This document shows positions 4,296-25,048 of a DNA stretch of 39,703 bases, one piece after another. Below the pieces are notes generated by a model. The model did not search any database. It worked only from the letters and a program-made list of their open reading frames with translations, and had not been told where the DNA came from. The translations under genes and the position numbers were made by a program. Location of the stretch: positions 1-39,703 of IMG/VR virus record IMGVR_UViG_3300037502_002375; one strand, given 5' to 3'. Source of the DNA: a virus. Within the stretch, counting starts at the first letter, position 1. Each line of letters begins with the position of its first letter.

Positions 4296-6944
4296 TTGAT
4301 ATATGAGCGCTTTATGGACCTTGAAAAAGTTCATAGTCATCAGCATAGAGGGCTTTGTCCCTTTCATGCTGATGAAGACCCTTCCCTTTATGTAAAAGAC
4401 ACAGGCCAATGGTTTTGTTTTGGGTGTGATGAAGGTGGAGGGCCTGTTAAATTTATACAAAAATTGTTAGAAGTACCTGAAGACATAGCACAATACATTG
4501 TTGATTTTTATGACGAGCACGATCGATTACCGCTACCTAATGAAGAGGAAATTAGAAAATACCAAGAGAACCTTTCTAAAGAGCCCGCAGTATTAGCGTA
4601 TTTAAAGGCGATAGGAGTTACAGACGATGTCATTGAAGAGCTAGAGATAGGTTGGGAGTATAACAGATTAATATTTCCGATAAAATCACGTTCCGGATAT
4701 TATGTGAATCTCCGAAAATATATGCCTCCTGGCTCATTGCGTAACAAGCATACACCTAAAACTATTCACGTTAGAGGTTTAGGTCATGCTAGATATTTTC
4801 CATATCATGCGTTCGATGAACAGGAGATTTTTATTGTTGAAGGCGAAAAAGATTTAGCGGTTGCTCGCTCACAAAACATAAATGCAGTCACTTCTACGAG
4901 CGGCGGAAGAATACCTACCGATCAAATACACCTGTTTAAAAATAAAGATGTATATATTATGGTAGACACAGATAACGTCGGCACAAGACTCGCAACACAG
5001 TACAAAACAATTCTTAATGACATAGCAAAAAGTGTTCATCGAGTAATTTTACCCACTAAGGACTTTGCTGAGTATTACGAGCTTTACAAAGATAATAACA
5101 TTAAAAGATTTATTGAATATGATAGTGTAGATTATGCTGGTTCTAAAATAAGAAAAATGAAACTCAAACAAAGTTTAAACACTGATACTATTGATGAAAT
5201 TATTGTTCTTGAAAATATGAAAATAACGGGCAAGCATTTTAATACATATACAATACCGACGGCTATGACAATTAATTGTAGTGAAAGTACATGTAATAAA
5301 GATTGCCCTTTTAAAGAAGTAGATACGACAATAAATGTAGCTGAACGTGATGCATTAACTTTTGTGCAAGCAAGTGACACAGCTCAATCAAACTATTTGA
5401 AACAGCAAATAGGATGTGCAAAAGCCTTAGTAAAAGATAAGCAATACATCAATGCACAAATAATATATTTTCAAGAAGATGTTACGATGATGTCTGCTGA
5501 CGATTATTACAACCAAATGCAAACAGGTATATACATGTTTAATGAAGAACCTTTACAAACAAATAAAACATATAATTTTAAGGCTGTAAGAACCACAAAT
5601 CCTAAAACACAGCAAATAGTATTTATAATACTTGAAGCACAGGAAAAAACATTAAGTATAGAAGTAAATGAAGAGAAATTGAAACATTTTTCAGATCTAG
5701 CACAAAACAAAAGTATAAGTGAGTTACTGGATATGTATTACGATATGTGGACACCTCACTTAGAAGTTTTTGGAAGAAAGGATTTGTTTAGTTTAATATT
5801 ACTGACATATTTATCAGTAATAGGTTTTTACTGGGGAAATACACTCATAAAGGGTTGGTTAGATTGTCTAGTAGTTGGTGATACACGTACTGGTAAATCA
5901 AAGTTAGTAAAAAATTTCATGCGTACATTAGGTGTAGGTGCTTATGTATCTGGTGAGAACTCACGTAAGACAGGTATTATAGGTGGTATCCAAAGATTGG
6001 GTGATAATTGGTCATTAAGTTGGGGTGTTGTTCCATTAAACGACAAACGCTTGGCTGTTATTGATGAGGCTTCGGGGTTAGCTGTTGAAGATATACAAGA
6101 GTTATCTCAAATGCGTTCTGAAGGTATTATATCAATCACTAAGATAATTGCAGAAACAACTACTGCTAGAACAAGACTATTTTGGATATCAAATCCGCGC
6201 TCAGGAAAACAGCTCAGTGATTACTATTGGAAAGGTGTTGATGCATTAAGAGAGTTTTTACCAGTTCAAGAGGATTTGGCCAGATTCGATGTAGTTACAA
6301 CGGCTGCACTAGAAGATGTGGATAATATCCATGTTATAGATGATAGACCATTAATGAGCGAACAACAAATAAACTTGTGGCGACAATTAGTATTATTTGC
6401 ATGGGATTTGAAACCTGAGCAGATTGTTATAACAAATGATTTAAGAAGGTATATAATTGATATAAGTGAAAAAATGGGTTCTTTTTATAAAGGATTACCA
6501 TTATTTCTGAAAACCAATGGATATGAAAAACTAACAAGAGTTGCAATAGCAGCAGCCGTATTAACATTTAATTATAAGGATGGAAATTTAATAGTTACAA
6601 GAGAACATATAGACTTCGCAAAAGAGTTCATCGAGGAGATATACGCAAAAGATTCCTTTAGATTCAAATTACTTAGTGAAAAAGAAAACAGAGAAAACGT
6701 AATGACTGATGACAAGAAAACTAAAATTAATAGATTATTTGATTTATATGAAAATTTAGGGTTGTTATTTGAAAGTGGTACCATTCGTAGCTATATGATT
6801 CAAGAAATACTTGGTATCGAAAGAGATGAAGCAAACAAACTAACAGCAGAGTTGTTAAAACTTGGCTTCATAAAAATAACACCCTATGGATATAAAGCAA
6901 CACCACAATTTTTAGATACTATAAGGGAGGTCAATGGAAGATGA
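4296..6944 (+). CDS. Bifunctional primase-helicase: CHC2 zinc finger, TOPRIM primase and MCM-like AAA+ helicase with winged helix
   Basis: An 882-residue replication protein. The zinc finger uses C21, H24, C41 and C44 (CPFH...CFGC). TOPRIM shows VEGEKD at 181-186 and VDTD at 223-226. A second Cys cluster (C328, C333, C337, perhaps C374) and a beta-rich part precede the motor. The motor has Walker A GDTRTGKS (528-535), Walker B RLAVIDEA (585-592), sensor-like WISN (630-633) and LARFD (661-665). These match the MCM pattern GDPGTAKS, VIDE and the SRFD arginine finger, not the RecA-like DnaB/T7 gp4 helicase. The last 50 residues form a winged helix, as in MCM. The TTG start follows AAAGGGGGCG. 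It probably primes and unwinds DNA for the family A polymerase. Confidence 0.85.
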   Translation: MIYERFMDLEKVHSHQHRGLCPFHADEDPSLYVKDTGQWFCFGCDEGGGPVKFIQKLLEVPEDIAQYIVDFYDEHDRLPLPNEEEIRKYQENLSKEPAVLAYLKAIGVTDDVIEELEIGWEYNRLIFPIKSRSGYYVNLRKYMPPGSLRNKHTPKTIHVRGLGHARYFPYHAFDEQEIFIVEGEKDLAVARSQNINAVTSTSGGRIPTDQIHLFKNKDVYIMVDTDNVGTRLATQYKTILNDIAKSVHRVILPTKDFAEYYELYKDNNIKRFIEYDSVDYAGSKIRKMKLKQSLNTDTIDEIIVLENMKITGKHFNTYTIPTAMTINCSESTCNKDCPFKEVDTTINVAERDALTFVQASDTAQSNYLKQQIGCAKALVKDKQYINAQIIYFQEDVTMMSADDYYNQMQTGIYMFNEEPLQTNKTYNFKAVRTTNPKTQQIVFIILEAQEKTLSIEVNEEKLKHFSDLAQNKSISELLDMYYDMWTPHLEVFGRKDLFSLILLTYLSVIGFYWGNTLIKGWLDCLVVGDTRTGKSKLVKNFMRTLGVGAYVSGENSRKTGIIGGIQRLGDNWSLSWGVVPLNDKRLAVIDEASGLAVEDIQELSQMRSEGIISITKIIAETTTARTRLFWISNPRSGKQLSDYYWKGVDALREFLPVQEDLARFDVVTTAALEDVDNIHVIDDRPLMSEQQINLWRQLVLFAWDLKPEQIVITNDLRRYIIDISEKMGSFYKGLPLFLKTNGYEKLTRVAIAAAVLTFNYKDGNLIVTREHIDFAKEFIEEIYAKDSFRFKLLSEKENRENVMTDDKKTKINRLFDLYENLGLLFESGTIRSYMIQEILGIERDEANKLTAELLKLGFIKITPYGYKATPQFLDTIREVNGR

Positions 6945-7618
6945 GTAAAGTCATAGTATTATTAAGTGGAGGTATGGATTCAGCTACTGTACTCGCGCAT
7001 GCTTTATCAGTTGCGAATGATGGTGATGAGGTAATCGCGCTAAATATGCATTATGGCCAGAGACACAATATTGAGTTAGAATGTGCACGAAATATTGCAA
7101 AGTATTATGATGTAGAGTATATCGAATTAGACATTAGTAGTGCATTCAAAAATATTTCAAGTGCACTGCTTCCACATTCAGGTATTGAGATTGATGACAA
7201 TCAGGATAAAAATCAAATTGGTTCGACTTATGTACCTGGTAGGAATATTATTTTTCTAAGTATTGCAGCTGGTATAGCAGATAGTATAGGTGCACAATAT
7301 GTTTATTATGGTGCACACAGAGATGATCATTCTGGATATCCAGATTGTACTGTTGAATTTTTTAAACATATGACTCGAGCCGTATATGCGGGCACAAAAA
7401 ATGAAGTAACGTTAATGGCACCATATATTTTCTCTCCTAAAAGAGCAATAGTAGAAGATGGAATGAGGTACGGTGTACCATTTGAATTAACACATTCGTG
7501 CTATCGTGGTGAAAGACCTGCTTGCGGTACTTGTCCTACATGTAAATTAAGATTAGAAGCTTTTAAAGAAGCTGGTTATGAAGACCCAATCGAGTATAGG
7601 GAGGAATCAACATGTTAG
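6941..7618 (+). CDS. queC: 7-cyano-7-deazaguanine synthase (QueC)
   Basis: A 225-residue enzyme that converts 7-carboxy-7-deazaguanine to preQ0 using ATP and ammonia. The PP-loop signature is VLLSGGMDSATVLAHA near the N-terminus, and the C-terminal zinc site is HSCYRGERPACGTCPTC. Both are hallmark QueC features, and the length is normal. The ATG overlaps the stop of the primase-helicase gene, so the block is translationally linked to replication genes. It is the first gene of a queC-queD-queE-folE run that makes preQ0 from GTP, apparently for DNA modification by the downstream DpdA-like protein. Confidence 0.95.
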   Translation: MSKVIVLLSGGMDSATVLAHALSVANDGDEVIALNMHYGQRHNIELECARNIAKYYDVEYIELDISSAFKNISSALLPHSGIEIDDNQDKNQIGSTYVPGRNIIFLSIAAGIADSIGAQYVYYGAHRDDHSGYPDCTVEFFKHMTRAVYAGTKNEVTLMAPYIFSPKRAIVEDGMRYGVPFELTHSCYRGERPACGTCPTCKLRLEAFKEAGYEDPIEYREESTC

Positions 7619-8049
7619 CAGTTACAAAAGAATTCACTTTTGATTGTGCACATATGTTATCTGGACATCGTGGGTTATGTAAAAATGTACATGGACATAC
7701 TTATAAAATGCATGTAACAGTTGTTAGAACCGATGATGATACAGATTACGAAGGATTAGTAATAGATTTTAAAGATCTTAAAAAACTTGTAAACGATGAG
7801 ATTATCAATAGATTTGATCATAGTTTTATAGCATGGGTTGATGGTAATAAGGATGAGCAAACAATAGCGCATGTATTAGATAAATTAGGTATGCGCATCG
7901 TCTATGTAGATTACAGACCTACAGCAGAAAATATGGCCAAAGATTTCTTTAAGCATCTGAATAGTATATTAAATAGGGGTCCATATGAAGTTATATCTAT
8001 AAAAGTTTGGGAAACACCTACAAGCTATGCAGAATATAGGGGGGAATAA
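7612..8049 (+). CDS. queD: 6-carboxy-5,6,7,8-tetrahydropterin synthase (QueD)
   Basis: A 145-residue member of the PTPS/QueD family. Zinc-binding histidines are in FDCAHMLSGH and NVHGHTYK, with the catalytic Cys in GLCKNVHGH. The FDHSF and PTAENMAKDF segments and the terminal VWETPTSYAEY are also typical. It converts 7,8-dihydroneopterin triphosphate (made by FolE) to carboxytetrahydropterin. The start overlaps the end of queC and has GGGAGGAATCAAC in front. Confidence 0.95.
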   Translation: MLAVTKEFTFDCAHMLSGHRGLCKNVHGHTYKMHVTVVRTDDDTDYEGLVIDFKDLKKLVNDEIINRFDHSFIAWVDGNKDEQTIAHVLDKLGMRIVYVDYRPTAENMAKDFFKHLNSILNRGPYEVISIKVWETPTSYAEYRGE

Positions 8050-8050
8050 T

Positions 8051-8635
8051 ATGCAAAAGTATCCTGTTATTGAAATATTTGATAGCATACAAGGTGAGGG
8101 TTCCTTTATTGGGACTCCTTGTACCTTCGTTAGATTAGCAGGATGTAATTTATCTTGTGAATGGTGTGACACTAAGGAATCGTGGTCTGTGGAACAGGCT
8201 GTAGAGATGACTGGTAAAGAGATAGCTGCAAAATGTAATCATACTTTAGTTGTGATCACAGGCGGTGAACCTTGTATAAATGATTTAACATCATTAGTAT
8301 ATTGGTTACAGAAAGACAAAGAGAATCCTCATTTCGTAGCGTTAGAAACTAATGGTACTTATAGAATTCCTAGTAGTTGGAGAATTGATTGGATAACTGT
8401 ATCACCAAAGCCACAAAGCAACTATAAGATAAACTGTGAGTATAATGAATTAAAATATGTTGTAGATGAAGAATTCGATCCTTCAGTAGTACCTGACACT
8501 AAGGATAACGTGTGGTTACAACCAGAAGGATATAACTTCAAGGAAAGTAGTAAAAGAGCATATGAATTAGTTATGTCAAACCCTAAGAAATTTAAAATGG
8601 GTATTCAACTACACAAGGTATTGGAGGTAAGATAA
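8051..8635 (+). CDS. queE: 7-carboxy-7-deazaguanine synthase (QueE), radical SAM
   Basis: A 194-residue radical SAM enzyme making 7-carboxy-7-deazaguanine. The 4Fe-4S motif is C-x3-C-x2-C in AGCNLSCEWCDTK. FDSIQGEGSFIGTPCTFVRL precedes it and ITGGEP follows, all typical of QueE. An upstream ATG at 8027 is in frame, but 8051 is better placed behind AGGGGGGAATAAT and starts at the conserved MQKYPVIEIF. It sits two bases after queD. Confidence 0.95.
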   Translation: MQKYPVIEIFDSIQGEGSFIGTPCTFVRLAGCNLSCEWCDTKESWSVEQAVEMTGKEIAAKCNHTLVVITGGEPCINDLTSLVYWLQKDKENPHFVALETNGTYRIPSSWRIDWITVSPKPQSNYKINCEYNELKYVVDEEFDPSVVPDTKDNVWLQPEGYNFKESSKRAYELVMSNPKKFKMGIQLHKVLEVR

Positions 8636-9196
8636 ATGCTTAGACGTGAAATGAGACAGAGAGCAGTGCAATTATTAATTGACAGTATTCCAAATGAGGA
8701 TAGAACAAGAGAGGGCCTAATAGACACACCTGACAGAGTTGCTAGGATGTATAATGAGATATTTGCAGGATATGAAATTGATCCTTATAGTTTATTCACG
8801 ACTTTTGAAGATGAAAATCATGAGGAAATGGTTATTGTAAAAGATATACCATTTTATAGTCATTGCGAACATCATATGGTTCCATTCTTTGGTAAAGCAC
8901 ACGTAGCATACATACCTAATGGTACTGTTGTTGGAATTAGTAAAATAGCGCGTGTAGTTGAATGTTTTGCAAGGAGATTACAAATTCAAGAAAGACTCAC
9001 TAAGCAAGTGGCAGATATAATCGAAGAAGTGTTAAAACCACTAGGCGTAATGGTTGTTATAGAAGCTGAGCATATGTGTATGACTATGAGAGGTGTACAA
9101 AAACCAGGAACAAAAACTGTTACCTCAGCTATAAGAGGCGTATTTAAAGACAATGAAAATAATGCTAGAGCTGAATTTTTACAATTAATTAAATAG
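8636..9196 (+). CDS. folE: GTP cyclohydrolase I (FolE)
   Basis: A 186-residue GTP cyclohydrolase I. The zinc site appears as [20 protein letters not shown] with a second Cys in [24 protein letters not shown] and the [10 protein letters not shown] helix are typical. It makes dihydroneopterin triphosphate from GTP, the first step of both folate and 7-deazaguanine synthesis. Its place beside queE suggests the phage supplies the whole path from GTP to preQ0. The ATG follows queE directly behind GGAGGTAAGATAA. Confidence 0.95.
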
Positions 9197-13837: not shown

Positions 13838-15922
13838 ATGAGCCAAAAACAAAAAGCATTGGAAAAACGATATTTTGCACCAGGAGAGACAACAGAGGAT
13901 GAAATGTATCTTAGGGTAGCACAAGCTGTTGCGTTTGATAGTAATGAATCACAGAAGTTTTTTGGCATGATGTCAAATCATGAGTTTTTACCAAATAGTC
14001 CCACATTGATGAATGCAGGTGTAAAAAACTCTTCTGGACAACTAGCAGCATGTTTTGTTTTACCTATTGATGATAGTATGGAATCTATTTTTGAAACATT
14101 AAAGAATATGGCTATTATTCAAAAGACTGGTGGTGGTGTTGGTTACAGTTTTGGTAGGTTAAGACCCAAAGATGCACCTATCAAATCTACATTCGGCACA
14201 TCATCAGGTCCTATAAGTTTTATGAAAGTTTTTGATGGTGCTACAGAATCCATTAAGCAGGGTGGTAGACGTAGAGGCGCAAATATGGGTGTAATGCCTG
14301 TTTGGCATCCTGATATTGAACGTTTTATTACATGTAAAGATGATAACGATGAATTAAACAACTTTAATATCAGTGTCGGCATCACCGATGATTTTATATA
14401 CGCTGTTAAAGAAGATGCGCAATGGCCTCTTACATTCAATCGCAAAGTATATAAAAAGGTAAATGCTAGAGAATTATGGGATAAAATATGTTATCAAGCG
14501 TGGAAAAATGGTGAACCTGGCGTTATATTCCTAGACAAGATTAATGCTACACATCCTATCTATGATGAAGAAATTGAGGCTACAAATCCATGTGGCGAAC
14601 AACCTCTTTTACCTTATGAGTGTTGTAACTTAGGTTCTATAAACTTATCTAAGATGGTTGATGAGCATGGTGTATTTGACTGGGATAAATTCAAGGAAAC
14701 AATTTATTGGTCTGTGAGATTTTTAGACAATGTCATTGATGTAAATAAATATCCATTACTTGAAATCGAAGAGACTGTTAAAGCAAACCGCAAGATAGGA
14801 CTAGGTATAATGGGATACGCCGACATGCTAATCAAAATAGGCCTAGTGTATGGTTCGGATGAGGCACTAGAATTTACTGCAGATGTTGCTGATTTCTTTG
14901 ATAAAATGTCAATAGATGCCTCTAAGCGTTTGGCGCAAGAAAGAGGTACATTCCCTAACTGGAGTAATTCTAAATGGGCAGATATAAATCAACCTATGAG
15001 AAATGCTACAACAACAACCATTGCACCAACGGGTACTATATCAATCATAGCTGAATGTAGTGGGGGTATTGAGCCTTTATTCGCATATGAATACGAAGTT
15101 AACAGAATGGATACTACATTCACAGAATATCACCCATTATTTAAACAAACGATGATGAAGAAAGGTATATTTACAGAATATCAAGCAGGTAGAATAGATG
15201 TACCAAAAGACATTAAAAAATTATTTGTATGTGCGCATGATGTAACACCTGAACAACATGTCAAAACACAATCAATATGGCAAAAACACATACATAATGC
15301 AGTAAGTAAAACAATAAACCTACCTAGTGATGCAACTGTAGAAGATGTAAAAGATGCATACGGCTTAGCGTATGAATCATATTGTAAAGGTGTTACAGTT
15401 TATAGAGATGGTTCAAGAGGTGCTGGTGTATTGTCAACCACTAAGAAAAGTAGTAATGTGACTCAAGTTAGGGAAGCTACTCAAGTCGCTGATGGTACAC
15501 GATATAAAATTCAGACAGGTTGTGGAACTTTATATATGATGGTGTTTACAGATGATGTTGGTAAGGTAAGAGAGATATTCACTAATTCTGCTAATGGTGG
15601 TTGTACTATATTTACAAATGCAACATCGCGATTGATAAGTTTAGCACTACGTGGTGATATACCAGTGGAGGATGTTATTGATCAATTAGAAAGTTCTGGT
15701 AGTTGTCCTTCTTATCAGTATGCAAGAGGTAAAGGTAAACAAGTAGCTGCTGGAAAATCTTGCCCAAGTGCCGTAGCAAAAATACTTAGAGAATATGTCA
15801 AAAGTGATAAAATTCAACGTAGCGTAAGTAATGGACCAAAGTGTCCTGAATGCGGTGCTAAAGTAGATATGGCTGAAGGTTGTATGACATGCCATAGCTG
15901 TGGTTATTCAAAATGTAGTTAA
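13838..15922 (+). CDS. nrdJ: Class II (adenosylcobalamin-dependent) ribonucleotide reductase
   Basis: A 694-residue reductase of NrdJ type. An active-site Cys lies in AACFVLPIDDSMESIFE, and the radical-site Cys is in EATNPCGEQPL, followed by YECCNLGSINL. TTTTIAPTGTISIIA (phosphate-binding loop) and the C-terminal CPECGAKVDMAEGCMTCHSC zinc-ribbon/redox tail are also present. The NPCGEQP layout and single-chain form mark class II, which generates its thiyl radical from vitamin B12. It lacks the class I pair gene and a class III activase nearby. It would supply dNTPs aerobically or anaerobically if the host provides cobalamin. The start follows AAGGGGGAATATATTGT. Confidence 0.93.
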   Translation: MSQKQKALEKRYFAPGETTEDEMYLRVAQAVAFDSNESQKFFGMMSNHEFLPNSPTLMNAGVKNSSGQLAACFVLPIDDSMESIFETLKNMAIIQKTGGGVGYSFGRLRPKDAPIKSTFGTSSGPISFMKVFDGATESIKQGGRRRGANMGVMPVWHPDIERFITCKDDNDELNNFNISVGITDDFIYAVKEDAQWPLTFNRKVYKKVNARELWDKICYQAWKNGEPGVIFLDKINATHPIYDEEIEATNPCGEQPLLPYECCNLGSINLSKMVDEHGVFDWDKFKETIYWSVRFLDNVIDVNKYPLLEIEETVKANRKIGLGIMGYADMLIKIGLVYGSDEALEFTADVADFFDKMSIDASKRLAQERGTFPNWSNSKWADINQPMRNATTTTIAPTGTISIIAECSGGIEPLFAYEYEVNRMDTTFTEYHPLFKQTMMKKGIFTEYQAGRIDVPKDIKKLFVCAHDVTPEQHVKTQSIWQKHIHNAVSKTINLPSDATVEDVKDAYGLAYESYCKGVTVYRDGSRGAGVLSTTKKSSNVTQVREATQVADGTRYKIQTGCGTLYMMVFTDDVGKVREIFTNSANGGCTIFTNATSRLISLALRGDIPVEDVIDQLESSGSCPSYQYARGKGKQVAAGKSCPSAVAKILREYVKSDKIQRSVSNGPKCPECGAKVDMAEGCMTCHSCGYSKCS

Positions 15923-15963
15923 AATAAAAGTCTAAAATTATGTTATAAATTTTATGTGAATGG

Positions 15964-16020
15964 CTCATAATAATATTAAGAGATAAATAATTATCTCAAA
16001 TAAAATTATTATGAGGAGGA
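15964..16020 (+). promoter_or_regulatory. Nested hairpin in the SASP leader, overlapping the ribosome binding site
   Basis: The outer stem CTCATAATAAT (15964-15974) pairs with ATTATTATGAG (16005-16015). An inner stem GAGATAA (15980-15986) pairs with TTATCTC (15991-15997) around ATAA. AGGAGGA at 16014-16020 begins inside the outer arm, so folding could hide the site. An extended -10-like TGTTATAAAT at 15941-15950 lies upstream. Translational or DNA-level control of the SASP gene is plausible but inferred. Confidence 0.6.
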
Positions 16021-16026
16021 ATACAA

Positions 16027-16410
16027 ATGCCAAGAAGAGGCGGAAGACATTATGTATTAGTAAAAGGTGCAGAGGAAGCAATGAATGCTTTCAAAATGGA
16101 GATTGCGAGAGATTTAGGACTTGATCACAAAATTGATGCTGATGGAAGTTATAAAAACATGACTACAGTGGAAGTCGGTCAAATAGGTGGTGAAATGGTT
16201 CGAAGAATTCAAGCAGCTGGTGAATATGCTATTTTACAAAGATATCAAAACAATGAAGAAAGGTTAATGCCAGAAGAAGTATTACCAAGACCTGACAGAG
16301 TAAGAGAAGTAACCAATAATGGTAATCCAACATTACACAAGTCTTTAAATCCGTCTTATGCACCTGGTTCAGGACAACAAGGAGTTAGTACAGACGGGTA
16401 CCAACATTAA
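16027..16410 (+). CDS. Alpha/beta-type small acid-soluble spore protein (SASP)
   Basis: A 127-residue protein whose first about 75 residues match alpha/beta SASPs, the abundant proteins that coat DNA in the spore core and protect it from UV and heat. YVLVKGAEEAMNAF is followed by K23-M-E-I-A-R-D-L-G-L32, which fits the SASP signature K-x-E-[IV]-A-x-[DE]-x-G and keeps the E|IA bond cut by germination protease GPR. TTVEVGQIGGEMVRRI (about 46-61) parallels the G-S-V-G-G-x-x-x-[KR] second signature. A 50-residue Pro/Asn-rich tail ending GQQGVSTDGYQH is unusual; family members are about 60-75 residues. The start has GAGGAGGAATACAA. It may coat phage DNA in spores, which is inference. Confidence 0.88.
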   Translation: MPRRGGRHYVLVKGAEEAMNAFKMEIARDLGLDHKIDADGSYKNMTTVEVGQIGGEMVRRIQAAGEYAILQRYQNNEERLMPEEVLPRPDRVREVTNNGNPTLHKSLNPSYAPGSGQQGVSTDGYQH

Positions 16411-16415
16411 ACACA

Positions 16416-16437
16416 GAGGAGTCTTAACCGACTCCTC
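16416..16437 (+). terminator. Hairpin without T-run (weak terminator or RNA processing site)
   Basis: GAGGAGTC (16416-16423) and GACTCCTC (16430-16437) form a perfect 8-bp stem with a TTAACC loop, just after the SASP stop. AAAATCTTAT rather than a T-run follows, so termination would be inefficient. It may instead stabilise the SASP mRNA 3' end or attenuate read-through into the helicase gene. Confidence 0.5.
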
Positions 16438-16460: not shown

Positions 16461-18002
16461 ATGTTAAATGTTCAACCTGAAATAAAAAATGGCTATATTA
16501 TAATAAATCAACCTAATATAGATATTATGACTAAATATGTTTTGCAAGGTATTGGTATGTCGTATAAAGAAAAACAAGGAATTTGGAAAGGAAGAGATGA
16601 TGCTTTAAAAAGAGCATATCTAGGCATACCTATAAAAAAGCAATTTGGGCAATCTATTGAAAGAGTTACTTTCCCACCATTAATGGATTTTCAAAGAGAA
16701 GACATTAAGAAAATGGTGCAAGCTGGTAAATGTTTAAATGCTAATGAAATGGGTTTAGGAAAAACATTAGAGGCAATCATTGCAGCAGAATTATTAAACG
16801 TAAGAAAGGAATTAATAATTTGTCCAAAGTCTGTAAGATATAACTGGATAAAAGAATACCAGAAATGGCTTAATATGCCTCGCGAAAATTTCTTAGTAAT
16901 AGAAGGTAATAAAAAACAACGCACTAAATTGCTTAATGAATTGAATAATGCAGACATTGTAATTACTAATTATGAAACAGCTAGGTTAGACGATGTTGCT
17001 AAAGAGTTACAGAAAATAAACTGGGACTTAGTGATATTGGATGAGGCACATCGTATTAAAAATGGTAAAGCAAAACAGACAAAAGTCATTAAGAAAATAA
17101 AGTCGACTTACAAATTTGCCCTTACTGGAACACCAATCCAAAATAGGCCAGATGATTTATGGTCTATATTACATTGGATAGATCCATTTTTTAGTACAGG
17201 TAGTTACTGGAGATTTGTTGAAAATTTTTGTGAGACATTTGATAATGGTTATGGTATGCAAATTGTAGGTATCACTAAGGATGCGAGTAAAGTGGAGGTA
17301 CTGAGCAAGATTTTGCAAAACATAATGATACGTAACGAAAAGAAAAAAGTTTTGAGAGAATTACCAGATAAAATCTATCAACAAATTAATATTAAGATGA
17401 CTAGCAAGCAAGCTAGATTATATGATAAGATAAAGAAAGAGATCCTTGTTGAATTAGAAGAAAGCGGTGAACTGTTTATAAACAGTGCACTGACTAGATT
17501 ACTCAGATTACAGCAATGTACTTCTAATCCGGAATTATTTGATCTTAAAACAAATCCTAAGTTTGAAGTTATAATGGATATACTAGAAGACTGTGACCCA
17601 GATAAGGTAGTTATTTTTAGTAGATTCTCAAAGACAATCAACAAGTTAGAACAATGGTTAAAAGACAAGAAAATAAAGAGTGTGAAAATAACTGGTGATG
17701 TCAAAGATAGAGATAAACAGATAAAAGCATTCATCGAAGATAATGATGTACGTGTATTTTTAGGTACTATTAAGGCGGTAGGTGAAGGTATAGATGGGCT
17801 TCAAAATGTCTGTGATAAAATGATTTTTGTAGATCGTGAATGGTCGCCAGCAGTTAATTTACAGGCGGAGGATAGACTCCATAGAAAAGGACAAACTAAA
17901 GGTGTGCAAATTATAGATTTGATATGTGAAGGTACTATTGACCGATATGTTGAAAAGTTATTAAATAAGAAAATAGAGGATATTATAAAATTAATAGGAT
18001 AA
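16461..18002 (+). CDS. SNF2-family DEAH helicase/translocase
   Basis: A 513-residue SF2 enzyme. Motif I is NEMGLGKTLEA, motif II is LVILDEAHR and motif III is LTGTPIQNR, with later KVVIFSRFS, GTIKAVGEGID and EDRLHRKGQ (motifs IV-VI). This is the SNF2 set, with Q-x-x-x-R-x-x-R replaced by a close match (QAEDRLHRKGQ). An N-terminal segment of about 75 residues precedes the motor. It probably remodels DNA-protein complexes or forks in replication/recombination. The start follows AAAGGGGGATATT. Confidence 0.92.
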   Translation: MLNVQPEIKNGYIIINQPNIDIMTKYVLQGIGMSYKEKQGIWKGRDDALKRAYLGIPIKKQFGQSIERVTFPPLMDFQREDIKKMVQAGKCLNANEMGLGKTLEAIIAAELLNVRKELIICPKSVRYNWIKEYQKWLNMPRENFLVIEGNKKQRTKLLNELNNADIVITNYETARLDDVAKELQKINWDLVILDEAHRIKNGKAKQTKVIKKIKSTYKFALTGTPIQNRPDDLWSILHWIDPFFSTGSYWRFVENFCETFDNGYGMQIVGITKDASKVEVLSKILQNIMIRNEKKKVLRELPDKIYQQINIKMTSKQARLYDKIKKEILVELEESGELFINSALTRLLRLQQCTSNPELFDLKTNPKFEVIMDILEDCDPDKVVIFSRFSKTINKLEQWLKDKKIKSVKITGDVKDRDKQIKAFIEDNDVRVFLGTIKAVGEGIDGLQNVCDKMIFVDREWSPAVNLQAEDRLHRKGQTKGVQIIDLICEGTIDRYVEKLLNKKIEDIIKLIG

Positions 18003-18712: not shown

Positions 18713-20143
18713 TTATCTAAACCACAAATTTGCCTTAGTCATTATAAATTTAACAATCCTTAATGCTAGTGCAAATACTTCGCCTCTGGTAATTGGGTCA
18801 TCAAATCTCTTTTCGTGTATTGTAATACCTAGGTCATTTAGCTCTTGCCAAATATCCTCAGCCCAATGTTTATGAGTCATTTTTTCCACCGCCTTCCAAG
18901 GGAATTTTTTACCTGGACATGTTTTATTAGCATATTTAAAATGTCCTTCTATTGGTAAATCACCGTATCTGTCTCTAATATCGTTTATAAGGTTTACTAA
19001 AGCTTCTAACATAGTACTTGGTACATAATCTTCATCAAAATTACCTACGAGACAGATACCTATTGATCTGTCATTCTGTCCTTTAGTATGTGCGCCTATC
19101 TCTTTTTCGTCTCTTCCTTTTCTGACTATTACTTTGTTATGTACTTTTTCTATGACATAATGATAACCAATGTCTTTCCAACCTTTGACATTCATATGAT
19201 ATTGTCTTATTGCTTCAAAATCTGAAAGTACTTCATTATCGTCGGTTAAACTATGATGCAATATAATTTTTTCAGGTTTGTTCATAGTTTCTACCTCCAC
19301 GTATTTACTCATATCAATATCGTCCGGATCCGGTAATATAAATAACCCGTATCCATGTTCTACATCAAAACCTAATTCACCCAAATCCTTAGTGTTATCT
19401 TTAACAAATTTGTAAACTTCGTTTTGATACAACGTTCTCCTGGTTTTTTCCAAGAAGAATTGTTGCACTAGTGCTAGCATACCACAAAGCATGGGGCTGC
19501 TAAAAGAAGTACCAGTCATAGGAAAGTAATGCCCTTTTCTTTTAGCATCGTGAATATATAGATTGGAAAATGTCATGAAATCTAAATTTTCATCATAAGA
19601 AGAGTATCTTGCTCTATAATATTTCCCTGTGCTGTTGTTGTAGTGTAAAGCACCTACACTTATCCAAACGTTACTTCTAGCAAAAGCACCTAAACCTTTT
19701 TCAGCAGTATTACCAGCGCTTGTAACAAATACAACGCCCCTCTTTTGTGCTTCTAAAATTCGTTTGTTTAGAAGGTCGTTATCAGTTCCTCCTAAACTAG
19801 CACCTATTATGTGGATATTATTCTCTTCTGCATAAGGTATAGTTTTCTCTACAAAATCACCTTTTATTTCATCATTACTATAACTTCCACCACTGGGTAA
19901 TACATAAAGTGTTGCTTCTGGTGCTATCTGATGCATTACGTCTAATACTTTTTGTCCATGGCTATTCCAGTCTCTTTCTCTATCTGATTCATTAAATGGG
20001 TCTTTCAACTTCCCATCGAAAAACCACAATGACGGATCAGCATCTTCTATTTCTGCTATGTTAATACCTTTACCTGTATAACCTTTCTCCCACCACAAAG
20101 GTATATTACATATTTCAAACTCTTTACGATTTTGCTCAATCAT
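18713..20143 (-). CDS. Endolysin fusing subtilisin-like protease, amidase_2 and SLH-like domain
   Basis: A 476-residue, three-part protein. Residues 1-270 are an S8 subtilase with D34 (AEIED), H62 (NSHGQK), the oxyanion N145 (TSAGN) and S213 (GTSFSSP). Residues 288-415 are a zinc N-acetylmuramoyl-L-alanine amidase: HH at 296-297, GYHY with H328, and H401...C409 (GHFKYANKTCPGK). Residues 427-465 (WAEDIWQELNDLGI, then DPITRGE) look like one S-layer-homology repeat, which binds secondary cell-wall polymer. No signal peptide is seen, so holin-dependent release is expected. A protease fused to an amidase is unusual for a lysin. It may remove an S-layer or spore proteins; Csp proteases of clostridial spores are also subtilases. 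The start follows AAGGGGGTTTAAAA. Confidence 0.88.
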   Translation of the reverse strand: MIEQNRKEFEICNIPLWWEKGYTGKGINIAEIEDADPSLWFFDGKLKDPFNESDRERDWNSHGQKVLDVMHQIAPEATLYVLPSGGSYSNDEIKGDFVEKTIPYAEENNIHIIGASLGGTDNDLLNKRILEAQKRGVVFVTSAGNTAEKGLGAFARSNVWISVGALHYNNSTGKYYRARYSSYDENLDFMTFSNLYIHDAKRKGHYFPMTGTSFSSPMLCGMLALVQQFFLEKTRRTLYQNEVYKFVKDNTKDLGELGFDVEHGYGLFILPDPDDIDMSKYVEVETMNKPEKIILHHSLTDDNEVLSDFEAIRQYHMNVKGWKDIGYHYVIEKVHNKVIVRKGRDEKEIGAHTKGQNDRSIGICLVGNFDEDYVPSTMLEALVNLINDIRDRYGDLPIEGHFKYANKTCPGKKFPWKAVEKMTHKHWAEDIWQELNDLGITIHEKRFDDPITRGEVFALALRIVKFIMTKANLWFR

Positions 20144-20382: not shown

Positions 20383-23300
20383 TTACCCCTGAGATGTCAA
20401 TTTCTCTAAGTCGTCAATAAGTTTTTGAATCCTTTTTTGTAGCTTATCAATTTCTTTGTTAACCTTATTAGTTGAATAATTTGGATTTTTATAAACATTT
20501 CTCATCTGATTTTCTAGCCTTTTTATCTCACGTACTTTTTGTATTACATCATAGGTTTTCTGTGGATTTTTTGTATTCTCTACTTCCCTTGTCTGATACT
20601 CAGTTAACGGCACTCTATCACGTTCATAATATTCTCTAGCTTCAGGTGTTGAACTTGGTCCAAACAAACCAGCTTGTAATTCTCTTGAGAATTTATCTGG
20701 AATTAAATATTTCAACGTTTTCTTACCTGTTTCATCATTTGTATTATATACGCCAGGTAAAGGTTGTTTTTCAGTAAGTGGATTCTTGTTCAATGCTGCT
20801 AATCCTTCAAATGATCTTCTCATCTGATCTCCACCATAAGCTGGTAGTAATTGCCATAAAGGATTTTGTAGTGCCTTCTGTAACACTAAGCCGCCTCCGA
20901 ATCTAGTTGGATCTGTCGAACCAAAAAATTCTTCTCTTTGTTGTTCTGGAACAATAGATGCTAATGACTGACCTAATGGTATACTGGACAATACTTCACC
21001 TGCTAATCTACCAGTTACCTTTAGCGGACTATTATCGGGATCTTCAACAGCATCAGCTACTGCTTGTATTGGATCAAATGTTACAGGGAAACCTCTTACT
21101 TGCTCCATTCCTTTATTTAACAAATTGTTTGCAAGGTATAACATTGCTAGGCCGGTAAAATCTTTTTCTTTTACCATATCTCTTTGTACATTCCATAAGT
21201 TACCAACTTCTACTTGGAAAGGTGCTATAGTTTGGAACACGTCTGATTGTTGTAATAATGGAACTTCACCAACACCTCTACCAGCCACTAAACTACGTGT
21301 TACATCATCGGCATATTTTATTGGGTTCTCAATTCCTTCTGCTAATGCTTTTCTATGCTGTGCATTCCAAATATATCTAGTACCAATCTCATCTAAAGCA
21401 CTAAGTAACCAGCCGGCGAACTTCTTAGGCTGATCTAATATACGTCTGTCAAATTGTGTATAAAGTTTTTCACTATAACGCTCATTAAGGAATGGAGATC
21501 TTTTTGCTGCTGTTGATACTTGATTATCAGCAACCAACCCAGCTTTATTCATAAGTTCTACAACTAAATCTCCTGCTGCTTTAGTTAGATGTTTCGGATT
21601 CTTAACTGTTGCAATTCCTTGAGGTATATTAGCAATCTGCGCTAATGCAGAACTTGCTTTACCAACAATCATATTAGCCTTAGCTCTTTTATTTAACCAG
21701 TTTAGTACTTTATATGGTCTTTCACCAATTACCTTCTTTACTGCATTATCTATCTTATGTGATTTACCAGACAAATTATCTGCAAACTCATCCAAGTATT
21801 CAATAAATGTATTTACATTTCCTTTATTCTGTGTAGCTTCTGCTAATGTTTTAGCTAGGTTTCTAAACTTAACAATTTGTGGGTCAATATGTGTTGCATA
21901 ACTTGCACCTCTGAGATAGTCTAAAAATCCACCTACAGCATCTGATGTATACTCAGCACTACCAGTTCTGGCTTTCTCAGCACCAAAATACTTTTTAAGA
22001 GGCTTGATGAAATCTGTTTTGCTTGCAAGCTCTGGACTCATTTGACTAGGTGAATCAAACAATTTTTTAACACCAGCAAATTCTTGCGTTAAATCTCTAA
22101 AATGTCTGTAATAATCTTTTCTCTTAGGAATGGCCGCATCTTCACCATAAGTCGTAATTCTTGATTGATTTATTGTATCTAGTAATTCATCATAAGCATC
22201 TCTAAAGAATTTATCCGCTGCAATGACCTTTTTCCAATCTTTAGGGTGAAGTTCTTTTAATTTGTCCAACGTTATAGTTCCTTCACCATAATCCTGTACA
22301 GCTTTTGAAAGTTTAGACTTTTTATTTATACCTAATGTATCAGTTACATACTTTAACTTGTCTGTCCATTCTTTCTGCATTTCTATATTTTGCTTTTTAG
22401 CTTCATCAAATGGGTCTAGTATTCTTTTCTTAACTTCTGGGAATTTGTCTTTAAATACTTTTTTAAAGTTTCTGTATATATCTGTCATGTTTTTATCGAT
22501 GGAACCTATATCATTAAGCTGTGGAGCTATATTTCTTATTAAATCTTCGGTGTTCACATCGTTTTTTGTCATTTTATTTTTCGCTATATCAAGATTTTCT
22601 TTAGCGCTCTTTATATTTATATTGTTATTTATTTTCATATTTGGTACGTCTTCAACACCTGCAACACGTGCAAGTTGTCTTTTTTCACCTATTTTACGTA
22701 AGTTGTCAATCGGATCAATTTTTTGGGCTTTTTCCCATCGTCTAAGTATATCATCCAAATCAATACCCAACTCAGGCTTAATGCGTTCTACTTCTTCTGG
22801 TGTTAATTTGTAATGTCTAAAATGATTGTGTATTTTTTCAATAGCTTCATTCCACTCTTGAGCTATACGATCAACTTCGGCTGTAGGTTTCTTAACTTTA
22901 AATTTACCTTTTAATTTAGGTGTAGTAGTTTTAGTAATTGCAAGTTCAGGTTCTGCAGTAGGTATTTTTACTTTAGCATTTGCTAAATCGCCGTTTTTCA
23001 CATTTCTAAATGCTCTCCCTAATCCATAAGTAGCTAAATCTATTGCTGTACCAATAGCAGCACCTTTACCAACTCTTTTAGCTAACTGCTTAGTGTCATC
23101 GCCTTCTTTAAGACCTTGTCCTACATCTATAACAGCACCAGCAGTAGCACCATGTAGGAGATGTTGTCCTAGTTTACTTGTAGCTTTAGTTGCAACTTTA
23201 TCCCCAATAGAAGTACCTGCTTTAAGTAAGCTAGGTGCTCCTCCACCCATAGGTGTCGCTAAGCCGAATGCACTGCCTGCAAATCCTGAAATGGTATTGA

Positions 23301-23613
23301 GAAGTTTACTTCCTGTATCTACTGGTTGTTGGTAATCTCTATCTCCGGGCTTAGCACCCGCAAACATATTATAGCCAGTATTTCTAAAATTAACTAAGGT
23401 GTCAGCAAATTTGTTTCCAACAGGTTTACCACTAAGGAAGTTATTTATTTTGTCTTTGAATGAAAGGGGTTCTGATTGATTTAAACTATCAACCGTTTCA
23501 ACCCCGCTAGCTTCCTTAATGATATAATCCCAATTTCTATTTGATTTTTGAGTTGTTTTAGGTACAATTTTCTTTAATGCAGTTTGTTCAATTAAATCCC
23601 AATTTCTATCCAA
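20383..23613 (-). CDS. Large internal virion (DNA ejection) protein
   Basis: A 1076-residue protein. The N-terminus has a tandem-like RNWDLIEQ/RNWDYIIK repeat. Residues about 105-200 are Gly/Ala-rich with several hydrophobic stretches (ISGFAGSAFGLATPMGGGAP, then HGATAGAVIDVG), plausible membrane-active segments. The middle and C-terminal parts are helical with long charged runs. There is no enzyme motif. Size, position between tail genes and lysis, and a glycine-rich membrane-type region fit an ejection protein that forms a channel for the genome. The start is TTG at 23613 behind AAGAGGTGATTTAA. Confidence 0.75.
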   Translation of the reverse strand: MDRNWDLIEQTALKKIVPKTTQKSNRNWDYIIKEASGVETVDSLNQSEPLSFKDKINNFLSGKPVGNKFADTLVNFRNTGYNMFAGAKPGDRDYQQPVDTGSKLLNTISGFAGSAFGLATPMGGGAPSLLKAGTSIGDKVATKATSKLGQHLLHGATAGAVIDVGQGLKEGDDTKQLAKRVGKGAAIGTAIDLATYGLGRAFRNVKNGDLANAKVKIPTAEPELAITKTTTPKLKGKFKVKKPTAEVDRIAQEWNEAIEKIHNHFRHYKLTPEEVERIKPELGIDLDDILRRWEKAQKIDPIDNLRKIGEKRQLARVAGVEDVPNMKINNNINIKSAKENLDIAKNKMTKNDVNTEDLIRNIAPQLNDIGSIDKNMTDIYRNFKKVFKDKFPEVKKRILDPFDEAKKQNIEMQKEWTDKLKYVTDTLGINKKSKLSKAVQDYGEGTITLDKLKELHPKDWKKVIAADKFFRDAYDELLDTINQSRITTYGEDAAIPKRKDYYRHFRDLTQEFAGVKKLFDSPSQMSPELASKTDFIKPLKKYFGAEKARTGSAEYTSDAVGGFLDYLRGASYATHIDPQIVKFRNLAKTLAEATQNKGNVNTFIEYLDEFADNLSGKSHKIDNAVKKVIGERPYKVLNWLNKRAKANMIVGKASSALAQIANIPQGIATVKNPKHLTKAAGDLVVELMNKAGLVADNQVSTAAKRSPFLNERYSEKLYTQFDRRILDQPKKFAGWLLSALDEIGTRYIWNAQHRKALAEGIENPIKYADDVTRSLVAGRGVGEVPLLQQSDVFQTIAPFQVEVGNLWNVQRDMVKEKDFTGLAMLYLANNLLNKGMEQVRGFPVTFDPIQAVADAVEDPDNSPLKVTGRLAGEVLSSIPLGQSLASIVPEQQREEFFGSTDPTRFGGGLVLQKALQNPLWQLLPAYGGDQMRRSFEGLAALNKNPLTEKQPLPGVYNTNDETGKKTLKYLIPDKFSRELQAGLFGPSSTPEAREYYERDRVPLTEYQTREVENTKNPQKTYDVIQKVREIKRLENQMRNVYKNPNYSTNKVNKEIDKLQKRIQKLIDDLEKLTSQG

Positions 23614-23626
23614 TTAAATCACCTCT

Positions 23627-25048
23627 TTATTTACCTAACGGTAATCCATTAATACGTAACAATTCGTCGATAATAGTTTCGTCTACACCAGAATTTTCTA
23701 GATTTCTAATGTATTGCACTTTATCTTCTACTGTTGGATATCCTCTGTTTAAGTTCTCAATTTGTTCCTGATATTTATTTACCTGTGAATCAACTGTTTC
23801 CATATCTAAACCACTGCCTAATTGATTCGGAATTAATGTTCTTCTTAGGTCATTAATTAACGTAGAATCAATACCATCGGTCTCTAGTGAATTAAGATAT
23901 GACAATGCATCTCCTTGTGACCACTGACCTGATTGTATCATAGTATCAAGATAATTTTTGTATTCATCGTATCCAAGACCTGTTTCATTATTTAAGTTTT
24001 CTAGCTGTTTTTTGGCGATATTTACTTTTATTTTAGCTAATTCAATTTCTTCTGGTGTTCGTGGTGGTGCTTTACCAATTTGATCGATTGTTTTTCTTAG
24101 TTGTTGGATTTTTAATTTATTCATTGTTGGTAATGCCTCAAGATTTATTTTTGCCATTTCGTTAGCAAGTAGTTGTGCTTGGTATACTGGATTATCTACA
24201 CTTCTTTGCCACTCTCTTTCATCGATTTTGAAATCCCACTCTTTTTGTTTCCATTGCTGCGCATCTTGATATGTTTTATTTCTCCAATCAATTTGATCTT
24301 GATATCTCATATCATTAATTAGTGCATTCAATTTTTCGGCATTAATCTGACTTAAAAGTGCTGCTTCTTGTGCTGAACTAGCATCATTTAGCTGTGCAAG
24401 AGCATTTTCAATATCATTAAGGGCTGTATTGTAATTGCTTCTTAGATTTGCCCGTTTATTTTCTATGTCTCTGTTAAAATTAGTTTGTGAAGTATTTATT
24501 GATGCTTGTGCTTGCTGTCTGTCACCTGCTAACTGAGCCTCAGATGATAAATTTCTACCAGAACCTATAGCACCCTCACTTGCTAGTAGTTCCTCTAATC
24601 TTCTTGCAGCTTTGAAATATCTTACATCAGTTTGATTTCTTTGATTTCTAAACTGTTGTCTAGATTCAGCTAATGTATCATCTAAATCTTCAATAGCTTG
24701 TCTATACCTACTTTCTAATTTGTTTCTATTTGAAAGTAGTTGTTCGCGTGCTGCTTCACGTGCTTGTCGTAATCGTTCTAATTCGGTACGTTGTCTTTCC
24801 TCATACATATCCTCAATCATTTTTCTAACATCTGAGCTTGAAGTGGGTTTTTTTCTAACATCTGAGCTTGAAGTGGGTTTTTTTCTACTCTTGCCGAGTT
24901 TTGTATAAATATCGCCATATTGCCTATCTTCACCACTTGCTACGGCTCCTACATATGCTGGATCGATTTTATCGGGTGATATACCTAAACCTGCCGCTTC
25001 GCGTTTAACTCGTTCCCAAGCTTCTTTATATTTATCTTTACTTGCCAT
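23627..25048 (-). CDS. Coiled-coil internal virion or tail-associated protein
   Basis: A 473-residue, mainly helical protein rich in Gln, Arg, Glu and Leu. The arginine-rich coiled coil from about 75 to 260 includes ERLRQAREAAREQLLSNRNK. A duplicated RKKPTSSSDV block near residue 55-75 reflects an exact 30-bp tandem repeat. It lies next to the 1076-residue ejection protein in the late operon, so it is likely a second internal/ejection protein. No enzymatic motif is visible. The start has AAAGGAGGGATAAGT upstream. Confidence 0.7.
   Translation of the reverse strand: MASKDKYKEAWERVKREAAGLGISPDKIDPAYVGAVASGEDRQYGDIYTKLGKSRKKPTSSSDVRKKPTSSSDVRKMIEDMYEERQRTELERLRQAREAAREQLLSNRNKLESRYRQAIEDLDDTLAESRQQFRNQRNQTDVRYFKAARRLEELLASEGAIGSGRNLSSEAQLAGDRQQAQASINTSQTNFNRDIENKRANLRSNYNTALNDIENALAQLNDASSAQEAALLSQINAEKLNALINDMRYQDQIDWRNKTYQDAQQWKQKEWDFKIDEREWQRSVDNPVYQAQLLANEMAKINLEALPTMNKLKIQQLRKTIDQIGKAPPRTPEEIELAKIKVNIAKKQLENLNNETGLGYDEYKNYLDTMIQSGQWSQGDALSYLNSLETDGIDSTLINDLRRTLIPNQLGSGLDMETVDSQVNKYQEQIENLNRGYPTVEDKVQYIRNLENSGVDETIIDELLRINGLPLGK
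24821..24880. repeat. Exact 30-bp tandem duplication in a structural gene
   Basis: Two identical 30-bp units, 24821-24850 and 24851-24880, keep the frame of the coiled-coil gene. They encode two copies of a KKPTSSSDVR-type ten-residue stretch. It is a recent slippage-type duplication. Confidence 0.95.

Follow-up and report, generated by a model that had tools for sequence, protein, structure and literature searches.

Why would a bacteriophage carry a gene for a small acid-soluble spore protein (SASP), one of the proteins that coat and shield the DNA of dormant spores, among its replication genes, and what could such a protein do for it? The question is raised by an open reading frame with an ATG start codon in IMG/VR virus record IMGVR_UViG_3300037502_002375, all 39,703 nucleotides of which were analyzed and are referred to here as the window. 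The gene and the parts of its product are as follows.

16012..16018, + strand: ribosome binding site GAGGAGG, from the sequence
16027..16410, + strand: long-type alpha/beta SASP gene, 127 aa, with a PF00269 match and phage relatives
16054..16209, + strand: SASP core domain, residues 10-61, with a Clostridia-like loop insertion (Pfam and AlphaFold2 model)
16099..16119, + strand: GPR recognition and cleavage motif, residues 25-31, E^I-A-R-D-L-G, with Asp at position 29 (alignment)
16210..16329, + strand: conserved tail, residues 62-101, comprising the end of helix 2 and then RLMPEEVLP..VREVTNNGN (alignment, dN/dS and absence from clostridial genomes)
16330..16407, + strand: distal tail, residues 102-127, poorly conserved and of low model confidence (alignment and AlphaFold2)

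The assignment to the SASP family made in a first-pass annotation is confirmed by HMM search. PF00269 matched residues 10-61 with a score of 53.7 bits (E = 2e-14), against a curated cut-off of 22 bits, and a six-frame search of the window, run separately, returned a single SASP match of 54.8 bits. By profile, the window protein is a genuine alpha/beta-type SASP. The family is characterized by two turn-linked helices that bind double-stranded DNA non-specifically and change its UV photochemistry, and by forespore-specific expression under sigmaG/sigmaF. Such proteins are typically about 60-75 aa long, a length that is typical and not strictly defining. The window protein is above this usual size, and given that some cellular SASPs reach 106-107 aa, its length is no bar to membership.

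The window protein contains the motifs FKMEIARDLGL and GQIGGEMVRR. In the alignment, the second Gly of the latter is matched with Gly52 of SspC, a residue required for DNA binding (PMC11392383), and the G54-G55 pair is invariant across the long-type family, that is, the window protein and its long-tailed phage relatives. The Glu25-Ile26 bond, the target of the germination protease (GPR), is retained (E25-I26-A27), and E-[IV]-A was observed at this site in 7 of 7 long-type members. Four positions after the Glu, at residue 29, all seven long-type members have Asp, whereas 39 of 40 other SASPs have Glu. The core signature and Gly-Gly block had been described as intact, cleavage bond included; this holds for the motifs and for the Glu-Ile bond, but the word is slightly too strong because Asp replaces Glu after the cut. 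Other signature positions at which the long type deviates are His8 (mostly Asn elsewhere), Lys13 (mostly Pro elsewhere), and Val50 (Asn, Cys, or Thr elsewhere). The long type also carries a loop insertion such as has been described for clostridial SASPs (PMC8452069).

An AlphaFold2 model built with seven sequences, and of moderate confidence, places helices at residues 15-30 and 47-74 with pLDDT values mostly between 70 and 90; the tail is modeled with low confidence. No match was found when this model was compared with the PDB by Foldseek or when the PDB was searched with the protein sequence, and a profile designated A1 gave a weak match (E = 0.046) to the SspC-DNA structure 2z3x.

The relatives of the window protein are found in other phages. 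A tblastn search against annotated phages identified five Bacillus subtilis phages (BSP7 and BSTP5, BSTP8, BSTP10, and BSTP12) with 60.8% identity over 93% of the window protein, and four of these five matches are annotated as small acid-soluble spore protein. Scans of IMG/VR yielded seven more contigs (L008-L014), two of which, L012 and L013, encode an identical protein. Identity between the window protein and seven phage relatives ranges from 54 to 75%. The C-terminal extension runs for ∼55 residues past the usual SASP end, in agreement with the ∼50 additional residues first estimated. It had also been called novel, which can no longer be maintained, as the same tail is present in six distinct IMG/VR phage proteins and in the BSP7/BSTP phages.

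Alignment of the long-type proteins revealed a common N-terminal PRRG[GN]R start and, in the tail, shared Leu, Pro, Arg, and N-x-G-N positions; the final 20-25 residues of the window protein show no conservation. The closely related pair L008/L009 differs by 36 synonymous and 2 non-synonymous changes, giving dN/dS values of 0 in the core and 0.02 in the tail. For more distant long-type pairs, dN/dS is likewise below 1, with the tail higher than the core. Given these low values, the tail, excluding its last 20-25 residues, is under purifying selection. A known cellular SASP extension was ruled out as the source of the tail: the tails of the 106-107-aa cellular proteins differ in sequence, and a 45-residue tail query matched none of the 398 genomes searched from the clostridial phylum, while it recovered all five phage records used as a positive control. 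As to function, we would guess at a disordered stretch for interactions, which either tunes DNA binding or makes contact with a further protein of the phage or the host; the tail may show how a non-specific DNA-coating protein gets steered to one genome.

Long-type matches were absent from the plasmids searched, and when 84,980 species genomes were scanned for motifs, only two ordinary clostridial SASPs came up. Since the two motifs used would catch 4 of the 7 known long-type members and miss three, and Bacilli were covered by the motif scan alone, restriction of the long type to phages is likely but not proven. In a tree built from 64 columns of the core, all seven long-type proteins fall together (support 100/99) on a long stem of 1.32 changes per column, positioned among clostridial-type SASPs. 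The SASPs of SPbeta, Goe12, SPO1, and phage G cluster with Bacilli in the same tree, and that of a Ruminococcus phage pairs with a clostridial SASP. Although 64 columns limit the resolution, these groupings suggest that phages probably took up SASPs more than once. The SPbeta and SPO1 proteins appear to be recent captures from Bacillus. A recent capture from Bacillus was also considered for the long type and is contradicted by the tree, within the limits of its 64 columns, even though B. subtilis is the host on which the BSTP phages are grown. SASPs of phages are not new in themselves, being already known as sspC of SPbeta and from SPO1/CampHawk and phage G; SASP is not named in the text of a study devoted to the sporulation genes of gut phages (PMC10294663). 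What is new here is a clade of long-tailed phage SASPs whose genes are preceded by a conserved promoter block of forespore type, in phages in which no integrase was detected.

This block lies upstream of the gene, close to a short hairpin.

15941..15972, + strand: predicted forespore (sigmaF/sigmaG-type) promoter TGTTATAA-N13-GGCTCATAATA, 54 nt before the ATG, from cellular-ssp and leave-one-out matrices
15980..15997, + strand: hairpin GAGATAA-ATAA-TTATCTC near the predicted transcript 5' end; 9 of 300 shuffles were equally stable

A block of the form GKWATAA-N13-GGNNMATAATA precedes the SASP gene in all eight phage members, 21-74 nt ahead of the start codon. Its spacing is nearly fixed, the block of L014 being shorter by one and less perfect; the final A is present in every member and the GG in most. 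To limit circularity, a two-box matrix was derived from cellular ssp genes. Here, an EM fit, initialized with a sigmaG consensus, was applied to 33 cellular ssp upstream regions (clostridial regions and six Bacillaceae plasmid loci) and resulted in GcATAa-N12/13-gg.a.ATAcTA. With this matrix, the best site within 130 nt upstream of every long-type phage gene was the conserved block, at 9.3-18.8 bits, scores that were matched or exceeded by 0-12 of 200 dinucleotide shuffles per member. When matrices were instead built from the phage blocks in a leave-one-out design, the SASP block ranked first in each of the seven phage sequences scanned, with 20.0 bits against 14.6 for the runner-up in the whole 39.7-kb window and 23.5 against 14.7 in 36 kb of BSTP8. 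With the cellular matrix alone, the window block scores 9.3 bits, and several sites elsewhere in the AT-rich window score higher; the case for a promoter therefore rests on conservation across the phages.

In Clostridium difficile, sigmaF promoters are distinguished by a G ahead of the -10 element and sigmaG promoters by an A behind it, and spoVT, which has both marks, may be a direct target of both factors (PMC3789822). Judged from its sequence, the phage block looks to have the anatomy of a sigmaF/sigmaG forespore promoter. A sigma-70 promoter was considered for the SASP gene, and the scan of the upstream stretch yielded no such site on the + strand. Matches resembling parS or the Spo0A box did not exceed chance frequency in scans of the window. 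The hairpin downstream of the block has a perfect 7-bp stem, with comparable structures in L010, L011, L012, and L014 and none in BSTP8; it possibly stabilizes the mRNA.

The factor that reads the block need not be of host origin. Four of the eight related records (the contigs of L011, L009, L010, and L014) encode divergent sigma-70 proteins (L071-L074) of 249-311 aa, whose closest named models are mostly SigK, SigG, and SigF, with scores far below the cut-offs of those models, and sigF/sigG-like phage sigma factors exist that can alter sporulation gene expression (PMC9429907). The SASP gene might thus belong to a phage regulon served by a sporulation-like sigma factor of the phage itself in place of host sigmaF/sigmaG. 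However, the block is found just as well in the window and the complete BSTP8 genome, in neither of which such a protein was detected, so its dependence on a phage factor is unlikely. The block also matches cellular ssp promoters, and in the leave-one-out scan it was top-scoring at the SASP gene only and not at other phage genes. Transcription by a phage-encoded factor is, on balance, rather improbable.

The surroundings of the gene bear on whether it is expressed during lytic growth. In the window, it lies between two replication genes, as follows.

13838..15922, + strand: ribonucleotide reductase large subunit, upstream neighbor
16416..16437, + strand: hairpin GAGGAGTC-TTAACC-GACTCCTC past the stop codon, with no + strand T run
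16461..18002, + strand: SNF2-type helicase, downstream neighbor

The position in a phage replication arm, given in the first-pass annotation, is borne out by these neighbors, and the arm further includes PolA, a primase-helicase, a dNK-like kinase, a dUTPase, and a QueC/PTPS/QueE/FolE set. Given that it lacks a + strand T run, the hairpin past the stop codon is a weak terminator at best. Among the relatives, the SASP gene is a lone gene with neighbors on the opposite strand in L008/L009, L010, L014, and BSTP8. It lies beside or near a ribonucleotide reductase gene in the window, L011, and L014, and adjoins the small terminase gene in L008, L010, and L012. Compared with a phage moron (an independent cassette that brings its own promoter and terminator and takes no part in the core cycle), all members have their own promoter block, and a clear terminator, consisting of a hairpin and a T-rich stretch, was found only in L010, L011, L012, and L014.

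Several other features of these genomes were recorded. The QueC, PTPS/QueD, QueE-like, and FolE genes (window 6941-9196, + strand) represent a 7-deazaguanine pathway and suggest that the phage DNA is modified; QueC is present in six of the eight long-SASP records and missing only from two shorter fragments. On the - strand, the window encodes a 476-aa protein (18713-20143) in which an N-terminal subtilisin-like Peptidase_S8 domain is fused to a lysis-type Amidase_2 domain, an unusual pairing, and its structural arm contains two long open reading frames (20383-25048; 1076 and 473 aa) with no Pfam or PHROG match. In L011, a ribonucleotide reductase open reading frame of 1035 aa (4560-7667, - strand) contains an internal HNH endonuclease-like stretch, probably an intein or similar insert.

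The arrangement in the window could suit a nucleoid protein of the lytic phase, made together with the replication enzymes, that compacts phage or host DNA, silences host transcription, or shields phage DNA from nucleases. The gene is co-directional with the replication genes on either side and no terminator precedes it, and an engineered Staphylococcus aureus phage carrying a SASP gene is antibacterial (PMC8538823). Because the ribonucleotide reductase gene is co-directional and no clear terminator separates it from the SASP gene, lytic read-through is possible in the window. In most relatives, by contrast, the neighbors are on the opposite strand, and therefore the SASP gene would rely on its own promoter. 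That promoter block is forespore-like, the scanned upstream stretch contains no + strand sigma-70-type site, and replication would presumably suffer if free SASP were present during lytic growth. Chromosome compaction during infection, one of the roles initially suggested, is thus disfavored by the type of promoter and, in most relatives, by the arrangement as a lone cassette facing opposite-strand genes, possible read-through in the window notwithstanding, and a lytic function is considered unlikely.

The reading that we favor, with a probability of roughly two in three, is that the long-tailed clade consists of phage SASPs expressed in the forespore from their own cassette, which coat spore DNA including a trapped phage genome. 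The infected host would commit to sporulation, and the phage genome would come to lie in the forespore. There, sigmaG, probably along with sigmaF, would direct the host RNA polymerase to the predicted forespore-type promoter of the SASP gene, and the two-helix core of the protein would bind DNA and help to coat that of the spore core, together with the trapped phage genome. The coated DNA would stay silent and protected until germination, when GPR would cleave the SASP at Glu25-Ile26. Forespore expression, DNA coating, entrapment of the window phage, and GPR cleavage are all inferred here. Entrapment of phage genomes in spores has been described for other phages, for example phi29 (PMC9429907), sspC of SPbeta is regulated by SigG (PMC8270828), and phage DNA protection has been proposed for the CampHawk SASP (PMC3868849). 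The first suggestion that the protein protects phage DNA carried in spores gains support from the predicted forespore-type block in all long-type phages.

The same protein could serve the host, an additional SASP aiding spore survival or changing how the infected lineage germinates or transcribes genes in the forespore, without protecting phage DNA specifically. SASPs bind DNA non-specifically, sspC of SPbeta has been discussed under host conversion (PMC8270828), and the SASPs of C. difficile influence sporulation (PMC11392383). Since coating would affect both genomes, such a trait is hard to separate from coating of a trapped phage genome. Neither a tyrosine integrase nor a serine recombinase was found in the eight records, several of which are fragments, and as no integration gene was found there would be no stable lysogen to profit. 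A purely host-directed trait therefore appears very improbable.

It has long been described that virulent phages become trapped in spores. A SASP of a phage clade, purifying selection, a forespore-type block, and the absence of a detected integrase point to an adaptation to dormancy. More tentatively, and with considerable doubt on our part, these apparently non-integrating phages might possess a gene devoted to dormancy, namely that of a SASP triggered in the forespore whose tail and altered GPR motif would target it to, or retain it on, the trapped genome, such that entrapment would be selected and programmed and not accidental. The dormancy hypothesis is open to direct test in B. subtilis, for which the BSP7 and BSTP phages are available in culture.

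Comparison with known systems places the long type as follows. In the phi29-type "virospore," a phage genome is carried in the spore (PMC9429907), the outcome that is proposed for the window phage. The SASPs of SPO1 (gp34.25)/CampHawk and phage G (gp417) resemble the window protein in being encoded by phages, which were isolated as free virions and for which phage DNA protection has been proposed (PMC3868849), but are 80-81 aa long with a Bacillus-like core. No matching forespore block was found in their upstream regions with the cellular matrix, and phage SASPs may thus be regulated in more than one way. The SASP genes of the SPO1 group (SPO1 and SPO1L1) are also lone and opposite-strand.

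SspC of SPbeta/phi3T is likewise a phage-borne alpha/beta SASP encoded by a lone, opposite-strand gene, with reported SigG control (PMC8270828). It differs in its length of 70-72 aa, the lack of a tail, its grouping with Bacillus host SASPs, and its origin in a temperate integrating phage. Clostridial SASPs of the C. difficile SspA type share with the long type the inter-helix loop insertion, the E-[IV]-A and Gly-Gly motifs, and the promoter type; by contrast, they are without the PRRGG start and the RLMPEEVLP..NNGN tail and have Glu, not Asp, in the GPR motif. In the B. subtilis phages BSP7 and BSTP5/8/10/12 (∼55 kb), the SASP is encoded by a lone gene among opposite-strand genes, has a shorter distal tail, and is annotated by name only, but these phages have in common with the window the same long-tailed protein, the promoter block, and the QueC and PolA genes.
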